Of a stretch of DNA of 64,000 nt, positions 48,868 to 50,098 are shown one piece after another. Location of the stretch: NCBI RefSeq assembly GCF_014211915.1, contig NZ_CP060039.1, positions 1,550,001-1,614,000 on the forward strand, read 5' to 3'. This DNA is from Burkholderia cenocepacia. GTDB lineage: Bacteria; Pseudomonadota; Gammaproteobacteria; Burkholderiales; Burkholderiaceae. Position numbers and translations under genes: made by a program. The notes beneath the pieces were generated by a model that was given only the letters and a program-made list of their open reading frames with translations, did not search any database and was not told the origin of the DNA. Position 1 is the stretch's first letter. Each line of letters opens with the position of its first letter.

Positions 48868-48908
48868 TTGGCATGCTGCACGCAATACTGTATAAATGTA
48901 CAGTATTG
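48868..48908 (+). promoter_or_regulatory. SOS (LexA) box overlapping sigma-70 promoter
   Basis: Promoter TTGGCA (48868-48873), 17 bases, TATAAA (48891-48896). On it lies CAATACTGTA-N6-TACAGTATTG (48883-48908), a perfect 10-bp-arm inverted repeat with core CTG-N10-CAG (48888-48903), the LexA consensus. LexA bound here would cover the -10 and start site. Confidence 0.85.
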
Positions 48909-48919
48909 GGCGCAGGCGA

Positions 48920-50098
48920 ATGGGTGGGCACATGGACGATCGGTCCGACAACGAATTTCCGATAGCGCCGCCCGTGCCCCGCAAGGGGCGCGGTGCGGTC
49001 GACAACCTGCAGGGGCGGTATGAAATCGCGCAGCGCGAGGCCGTGGACGACGGCTGGACGCACGCGTCCGACGATGCCGATTTCCCCGCGCCGCTGCGCA
49101 CGCAGGTATTCGAGGAGCGGGCGAAGAGCATCCTGACGCGTAACCAGTCGCCCGATATTCCGTTCAGCGTGTCGCTCAATCCGTATCGCGGCTGCGAGCA
49201 CGGTTGTATCTACTGCTTTGCGCGGCCGACGCACAGCTACCTCGGGCTGTCGCCGGGGCTCGATTTCGAAAGCCGCATCTATGCGAAGGTGAACGCGGCT
49301 GAACTGCTCGAGCGCGAGATTTCGCGCAAGCGCTACGTGCCGGAACCGATCGCGCTCGGCGTCAATACCGACGCGTACCAGCCGGTCGAGCGCGACCTGC
49401 GCATCACGCGCAGCGTGATCCAGGTGATGCACGATCGCGGGCTGCCGTTCGCGGCGATCACGAAGTCGTCGCTGATCGAGCGCGATCTCGACCTGCTCGC
49501 GCCGATGGCCGAACGCGGGCAGGTGATGGCGGCGGTCACGATCACGACGCTCGATGCCGAGCTCGCGCGCACGCTCGAGCCGCGCGCGGCGACCCCGGCG
49601 CGGCGGTTGCGCACGATCCGCGCACTGCGCGATGCGGGCGTGCCGGTCGGCGTGAGCATCGCACCGGTGATCCCGTTCGTGACCGAGCCCGACATGGAGC
49701 GCGTGCTGGAGGCCTGCGCGGAAGCCGGCGCGACGCATGCGAGCTACATCATCCTGAGGTTGCCGTGGGAGGTCGCGCCGCTGTTCAAGCAGTGGCTTGC
49801 CGCGCATTTTCCCGATCGTGCGGAGCGCGTGATGAACCGCGTGCGCGACATGCGCGGCGGCAAGGATTACGACTCGGATTTCTCGAAACGGATGAAGGGG
49901 GAGGGGATCTGGGCCGACCTGTTGCGGCAGCGCTTCCGTCAGGCGGTCAAGCGGCTCGGGTTGAACGAACGCACGAACGGCATTCTCGATCTGTCGCGGT
50001 TCAGCAGTGCGCCGGCTGCAGGGGGGCCGACGCCGCGTGTCGCGGTTCGTTCAGCGGGCGCGAAGTCGCGCGACGACATGCAGTTGAACCTGTTCTGA
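48920..50098 (+). CDS. PA0069-family radical SAM protein
   Basis: 392 residues from ATG 48920 (an ATG at 48932 is an alternative; the ATG at 48896 lies inside the operator and is rejected). The radical SAM cluster cysteines are in LNPYRGCEHGCIYCFARPTH (CxxxCxxC), with the following aromatic typical of the family. Downstream SPGLDFESRIYAKVNAAELL, YVPEPIALGVNTDAYQPVER and GVPVGVSIAPVIPFVTEPDM belong to the SplB-like/Rv2578c/PA0069 group. Members are thought to act on nucleic acids, and SplB repairs spore photoproduct, but the reaction of this group is unknown. The perfect LexA box before the gene supports a DNA-damage role. Confidence 0.9.
   Translation: MGGHMDDRSDNEFPIAPPVPRKGRGAVDNLQGRYEIAQREAVDDGWTHASDDADFPAPLRTQVFEERAKSILTRNQSPDIPFSVSLNPYRGCEHGCIYCFARPTHSYLGLSPGLDFESRIYAKVNAAELLEREISRKRYVPEPIALGVNTDAYQPVERDLRITRSVIQVMHDRGLPFAAITKSSLIERDLDLLAPMAERGQVMAAVTITTLDAELARTLEPRAATPARRLRTIRALRDAGVPVGVSIAPVIPFVTEPDMERVLEACAEAGATHASYIILRLPWEVAPLFKQWLAAHFPDRAERVMNRVRDMRGGKDYDSDFSKRMKGEGIWADLLRQRFRQAVKRLGLNERTNGILDLSRFSSAPAAGGPTPRVAVRSAGAKSRDDMQLNLF

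Follow-up and report, generated by a model that had tools for sequence, protein, structure and literature searches.

A putative sliding-clamp motif on a radical SAM protein of the PA0069 family predicted to be under LexA control in Burkholderia cenocepacia

The gene considered here encodes a radical S-adenosylmethionine (SAM) protein of the PA0069 family and lies behind a LexA box in a 64,000-nucleotide stretch of Burkholderia cenocepacia DNA (contig NZ_CP060039.1, positions 1,550,001 to 1,614,000; hereafter the window). The protein terminates ...SRDDMQLNLF, and its last five residues form a putative beta-clamp binding motif that is nearly invariant among orthologs. From the sequence evidence set out below we consider it probable that the gene specifies an SOS-induced, clamp-recruited radical SAM enzyme which acts on DNA and is not a spore photoproduct lyase (SPL). 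Taken part by part, the predicted LexA control is close to certain, binding to the clamp is highly likely, DNA is a likely substrate and direct reversal of a lesion is proposed tentatively. It is the clamp-type C-terminal motif, not the LexA control, that is the part worth a specialist's time.

The C-terminal motif

The polymerase UmuC of Escherichia coli is induced in the SOS response. The pentapeptide QLNLF occurs unchanged at its residues 357-361, and the beta-clamp consensus quoted in the same source, QL[S/D]LF, is one that the window sequence fits (PMC3716654). In UmuC the motif is internal, whereas here it sits at the C-terminus of a radical SAM enzyme. It follows a linker for which the predicted local distance difference test (pLDDT) gives low means (57 for residues 361-370, 47 for 371-380 and 55 for 381-388), so that this motif of the QL[SD]LF type is predicted to lie in a flexible and accessible stretch of the chain.

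Conservation was assessed in a sample of the phylum in which 111 of 299 genomes carry the gene above the family cut-off, 38 belonging to the window's class (same-class) and 73 to classes other than the window's (other-class). Six genomes with sub-cut-off matches only, and secondary matches in G150, were left out of the 111; the other-class genomes appear, from their operator and from named loci, to be mostly alphaproteobacteria. The pattern Qxx[LM][FL] lies within the last 15 residues of 101 of these 111 orthologs, shuffles of the same residues giving an average of 5.4 and a maximum of 12. The ten orthologs missing the strict motif retain QxxL[IW], QxxLD[LF], QLTLPG or an internal copy. A 91-row alignment was built from the window protein, 71 of 73 clustering representatives, and six PA0069 and 13 Rv2578c proteins chosen from databases; the remaining two representatives, L185 and L199, were omitted for their long tails and carry QGDLF and QMDLF. 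In this alignment Gln384 is present in 78/78 PA0069-type and 6/13 Rv2578c-type proteins, and Leu387 in 77/78 and 13/13, respectively, while the residues preceding the motif are variable and predicted to be disordered.

A C-terminal QxxLF might instead be a proteolysis tag or a structural tail, on an enzyme that acts on RNA or protein and is linked to the SOS response through its expression only. Such a reading draws on the 86 orthologs that end exactly with the strict motif, as C-degrons do, but a C-degron could tolerate neither the extra residues that follow the motif in 15 more orthologs nor its position well inside the longer tails of L185 and L199. Since, moreover, the invariant position is Gln, the hallmark of clamp motifs (PMC3716654), we consider a tag or tail very unlikely.

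None of the 16 other radical SAM open reading frames (ORFs) of the genome (one of them, L279, below the Pfam cut-off) has the motif in its last 15 residues or a LexA box. The pattern Q[LF]x[LF]F followed by a stop ends four open frames in 7.6 Mb, of 400 (this gene), 207, 97 and 48 codons; two further matches to the pattern end in TGG. All 15 orthologs without a canonical operator retain the motif, which therefore belongs to the protein as such and is not confined to members of the SOS regulon. Relatives in Streptomyces, Nonomuraea, Tsukamurella and Arthrobacter end QLTLL, QLRLL, QESLF and QEPLF, that of Gemmatirosa QLSLGI, and three from Clostridia QLSFF, QQSLFD and QLGF. When the 120 best homologs were taken for each of two proteins, a loose form of the motif was present in the last 12 residues of 118 for the window protein and of 87 for that of Tsukamurella. 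A clamp-binding motif on a radical SAM protein was not found in the Creative Commons-licensed literature searched, partly by clamp terms.

LexA operators upstream of the gene

The box, CAATACTGTATAAATGTACAGTATTG in full, consists of perfect 10-bp arms (48883-48892 and 48899-48908) around the 6-bp spacer TAAATG, and an imperfect repeat extends the arms to 17 nt (48876-48892 and 48899-48915; 88% complementary). It contains both CTG-N10-CAG and the stricter CTGT-N8-ACAG, and agrees at 18 of 20 bases with TACTGTATATATATACAGTA, the classical LexA consensus, against which the boxes were scored. Since the CTGT-N8-ACAG core alone is not significant in the window (1 match, 0.31 expected), significance rests on the perfect arms, the 18/20 match and conservation. 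A promoter scan returned 0 promoters at the locus; because that scan demands T as the last base of the -10 hexamer, the TTGGCA/TATAAA promoter stands as a match made by eye.

In the genome as a whole, which comprises 7.6 Mb on four contigs, CTGT-N8-ACAG occurs at 40 places and the reversed control at 29. Nineteen stretches, covering 22 of the 40, were read. In these, boxes precede lexA (two; 15 and 16/20), recA (15/20), dinB (15/20), imuA at three loci (16-17/20), an SRAP gene (15/20) and a UvrA gene (17/20), and none of the 22 places attains 18/20. Two of the imuA genes lie, each behind a separate LexA box, on the smallest contig, C4 (160 kb; L127 at ~58.4 kb and L128 at ~93.0 kb), and the third on C1 (L113). 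Boxes were also seen before a DUF2471 gene (16/20; G000:C2:2246253, L124) and a FAN1-type gene (G000:C2:849495, L122), the latter at 13/20 being the lowest among the named boxes. An identical 16-mer, CTGTAGGCGAAAACAG or its complement, occurs six times (C1:543980, C1:806230, C1:1031916, C1:3029770, C2:1878811 and C3:632830) and, given this recurrence, probably belongs to some repeated element (the ribosomal RNA operons, perhaps) rather than being an SOS box.

Within the genus the gene is present in 37/37 genomes, that of the window included, and the loci retrieved from 21 of them all have a box of 17-19/20. Across the phylum sample, with a search reaching ~350 bases upstream of the homologous region (just 175 for L211), CTGT-N8-ACAG precedes 30/38 same-class and 0/73 other-class orthologs (shuffle mean 0.1). 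The reverse holds for GTTC-N7-GTTC, the alphaproteobacterial SOS box: 66/73 other-class and 0/38 same-class orthologs (shuffle mean 0.7). Three control patterns matched less often, CTTG-N7-CTTG in 5/73 other-class and 0/38 same-class orthologs, TGTC-N8-GACA in 1/73 and 0/38, and GTC-N10-GAC in 12/73 and 2/38. The looser CTG-N10-CAG was abandoned in favour of the strict form because it matched not only 32/38 same-class but also 10/73 other-class loci (shuffle mean 6.0). With a Xanthomonas-type box, TTAGTAATAATACTAA, in one same-class genome (L194), a recognisable SOS operator is found in 97/111 orthologs. The gene recurs under unrelated LexA operators, CTGT-N8-ACAG and GTTC-N7-GTTC, without crossover.

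In a second set, made up of 39 loci of which most are named, there is GTTC-N7-GTTC in alphaproteobacteria including Rhizobium, Agrobacterium, Sinorhizobium, Paracoccus and Azospirillum, and there are boxes upstream of the Aeromonas (L141) and Pseudomonas (L112) orthologs. The actinobacterial GAAC-N4-GTTC is upstream in two of four records (L133 and L134; not L132 or L135), too few for a claim about an actinobacterial operator. A record titled Mycobacterium sp. KBS0706 (L086) holds a PA0069 ortholog with an alphaproteobacterial SOS box, and the record name is probably wrong. A phage search gave four weak unannotated matches only, and two loci on viral contigs, both cut by the contig end, were excluded from every count.

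These results bear out the initial annotation in its description of a perfect inverted repeat enclosing the LexA core CTG-N10-CAG, the arms of which are exact, and of a box that overlaps TTGGCA-N17-TATAAA. It proposed looking for the box before orthologs in Burkholderia and Pseudomonas; boxes precede the gene in all 21 loci retrieved within the genus and, in Pseudomonas, at L112.

SOS control of a gene named splB was predicted in 2012 for Burkholderia and alphaproteobacteria (PMC3323433), where it is interpreted as photoreactivation by SPL. That splB is very probably the same gene under the same LexA control and, because the prediction agrees with the operators found here, LexA control of the gene is not new. 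The paper reports that the regulation was not seen in gammaproteobacteria, whereas boxes are present here at the gammaproteobacterial orthologs of Aeromonas and Pseudomonas; a clamp motif is not among the things named in its section 8. Radical SAM or SplB genes have also been reported in the LexA regulons of Streptomyces (the Streptomyces venezuelae table has a radical SAM gene; PMC9380542), of Bacteroidetes (PMC8565304) and of Gram-positive bacteria and Balneolaeota (PMC7739468). PMC8151990 mentions a RecA-dependent 'DNA repair photolyase' of M. tuberculosis, giving no locus tag at that point, and PMC8944484 does not name PA0069.

Family, fold and relation to spore photoproduct lyase

The protein scores 470.8 bits (E 2.3e-141) against the PA0069 family model NF033668, for which the cut-off is 360, and 240.3 bits against that of the sister family Rv2578c (NF038135), short of the cut-off of 430. 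It has the cluster motif of these families and resembles them in overall sequence, and all three cluster Cys residues are kept in 91/91 aligned proteins. NF033668 is classed as a hypothetical equivalog, no function being given for it, and its description omits the C-terminal motif. The model extends to the last codon in orthologs with short linkers (e.g. L142), thus covering the motif, while the window protein matches only positions 1-336 of 348. The features of the locus are collected in Table 1.

Table 1. Features of the PA0069-family locus in window coordinates
Feature	Position	Strand	Basis and remarks
-35-like hexamer TTGGCA	48868..48873	+	read by eye
LexA box CAATACTGTA-N6-TACAGTATTG	48883..48908	.	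read in sequence; kept in orthologs
LexA box core CTGTATAAATGTACAG	48888-48903		part of the 48883..48908 box
-10-like hexamer TATAAA	48891..48896	+	by eye; inside LexA box, 17 bp from -35
PA0069-family radical SAM gene, 388 aa	48932..50098	+	profile score; alternative in-frame start 48920, 392 aa
CEHGCIYC, radical SAM CxxxCxxC [4Fe-4S] motif, residues 88-95	49193..49216	+	alignment
Variable linker, predicted disordered, residues 359-383	50006..50080	+	pLDDT and gappy alignment columns
C-terminal QLNLF, putative beta-clamp binding motif, residues 384-388	50081..50095	+	motif match, conservation

The longest ORF starts at an ATG at 48896, inside the box; the two starts given in Table 1 are more plausible, and the lengths that they yield, 388 and 392 aa, are both found among database proteins with 97% identity. 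Upstream lies an Lrp/AsnC-type regulator and downstream, on the opposite strand, a TM2-domain gene. The best segment of the locus in Burkholderia sp. MS389 (L081) is 98% identical. Among the same-genus genomes, G015 has a PA0069 gene with an adjacent partial second copy on the opposite strand (C6:159066-161039) and a third fragment (206689), and in two others there is, besides, a remote homolog scoring 150 bits that is interrupted by a TGA (G019:C4:479989 and G025:C2:3209941).

The closest predicted fold is that of SPL (PDB codes 4k9r, 4fhc and others), which has the CxxxCxxC cluster motif in common with the window protein. Sequence matches to the PDB, namely eight rows of pentatricopeptide proteins on residues 174-214 and one of a response regulator, were taken as spurious. 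SPL residues were mapped by spacing, not by residue-level structure alignment, and in these terms Tyr94 corresponds to SPL Tyr97 and is present in 91/91 aligned proteins. The catalytic donor of SPL, Cys141 (PMC3742179), has no conserved counterpart: no Cys outside the cluster is conserved in the 91 rows, and the column nearest by spacing (residue 137, one off) holds Cys in 19/78 PA0069-type and 0/13 Rv2578c-type proteins and Pro in the window protein. At the position of the relay residue Tyr99, after the third cluster Cys, Phe is found in the window protein, in 57/78 and in 13/13, and Tyr in 21/78. The window protein differs from SPL also in its added C-terminal linker with QLNLF.

Because neither Cys141 nor Tyr99 is conserved, the lesion is probably not the spore photoproduct. 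A true SPL (SplB) that deals with ultraviolet damage when soil cells are dry and has simply come under SOS control, in line with the photoreactivation reading of 2012, would suit the nearest fold, the invariant Tyr94 and the published name splB (PMC3323433), but the unconserved donor, the predominance of Phe at the Tyr99 position and a sequence identity of just 13-14% in the structural match argue against it and make it improbable.

A clamp-recruited enzyme and its possible substrates

In 30/73 other-class genomes rnhB, the gene for RNase HII, follows in the same orientation no more than 1.5 kb downstream; these genomes represent 10 of 18 families. In three more, rnhB is convergent and at most 32 bases away. 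In G064 and G119 it is 4.4 kb upstream on the opposite strand, and these were not counted. A survey of neighbours gave 43 candidate close downstream ORFs from 97 loci, of which 12 were RNase HII and six glyoxalase-like. In one large group, the rnhB neighbourhood connects the gene with DNA maintenance. Ribose is open to attack by radical SAM chemistry, and one might envisage an SOS enzyme that works with RNase HII on ribonucleotides or odd nucleotides in new DNA, for example by radical conversion in place; the clamp motif would put it on such DNA, and the 30 downstream and three convergent neighbours speak for a partnership. Yet rnhB is unlinked in 38/38 same-class genomes and gene order may persist without function, and we hold this specific role to be unlikely.

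In the reading that we prefer, a clamp-recruited enzyme acting on DNA, LexA bound at its box would cover the -10 region and block transcription until DNA is damaged. Members of the radical SAM superfamily use a [4Fe-4S] cluster and SAM to generate a 5'-deoxyadenosyl radical, and in the window protein the cluster would be held by Cys88, Cys92 and Cys95. The disordered linker would present QLNLF for docking in the hydrophobic cleft of the beta sliding clamp, which would bring the enzyme to DNA at or behind stalled forks alongside the SOS polymerases. Tethering of this kind would raise its concentration on DNA that is stalled or has just been replicated, which is also where those polymerases dock; there it may reverse or modify a base or crosslink lesion via hydrogen abstraction. 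As to the lesion, our guess is that it is either a crosslink, within one strand or between two, or a nucleotide of the DNA that has been modified.

The assignment of the gene to the PA0069 group in the initial annotation is upheld by the profile score, and its description as SplB-like by the predicted fold. That annotation further suggested an undescribed activity in the repair of DNA lesions or nucleotides. The former part stands, in that a DNA-directed activity other than plain SPL is likely; repair in the nucleotide pool is less likely, since the clamp-type motif, on which that annotation is silent, points to clamp-bearing DNA. A parallel is offered by archaeal SplB-like proteins encoded beside NreB, a possible binder of PCNA, which are suspected of crosslink repair (PMC4929162). 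There too a SplB-like protein with no assigned substrate is linked to a possible sliding-clamp partner, but the candidate clamp motif belongs to the neighbouring protein and not, as here, to the radical SAM protein.

Several observations weigh against a clamp-recruited enzyme under SOS control. Five residues make a short motif, and the -LF at the C-terminus might have another purpose; across the genome, codons for Q[LF]x[LF]F-stop show no enrichment (6 matches, compared with 5 and 9 for the reversed pattern). Three of six Bacillota relatives (the Bacilli) have no such C-terminus. Actinobacteria often lose the Gln, as the count of 6/13 among Rv2578c-type proteins also indicates: among the 120 best matches to the Tsukamurella protein, 33 are without the loose motif and 27 end ALTLF. 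A canonical operator is absent in 7/73 other-class and 8/38 same-class orthologs (one of the eight having the Xanthomonas-type box), and 12 of the 39 loci in the second set match none of the five operator patterns tried. The mirrored control reached 5/73 against its own shuffle mean of 0.5, and the looser GTC-N10-GAC 12/73 against 6.0; shuffles therefore underestimate chance somewhat. Finally, rnhB is within 6 kb on the same contig in 0/38 same-class genomes, the window's included (compared by eye), and shared descent can preserve gene order, related genomes not being independent.

A wider proposal, which we regard as evenly balanced, is that of a widespread SOS-induced radical SAM family, recruited by the clamp, which performs radical chemistry on lesions in fork DNA. 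This would be an undescribed replisome-associated form of direct-reversal repair or tolerance, with a substrate other than the spore photoproduct, be it crosslinks or odd nucleotides, and with RNase HII as a possible partner. The near-invariant clamp-type tag turns the question of this SplB-like SOS protein into one of DnaN binding and of a lesion test. If the proposal is true, radical SAM chemistry would be linked to replication-coupled repair, and the photoreactivation reading in print would be corrected.
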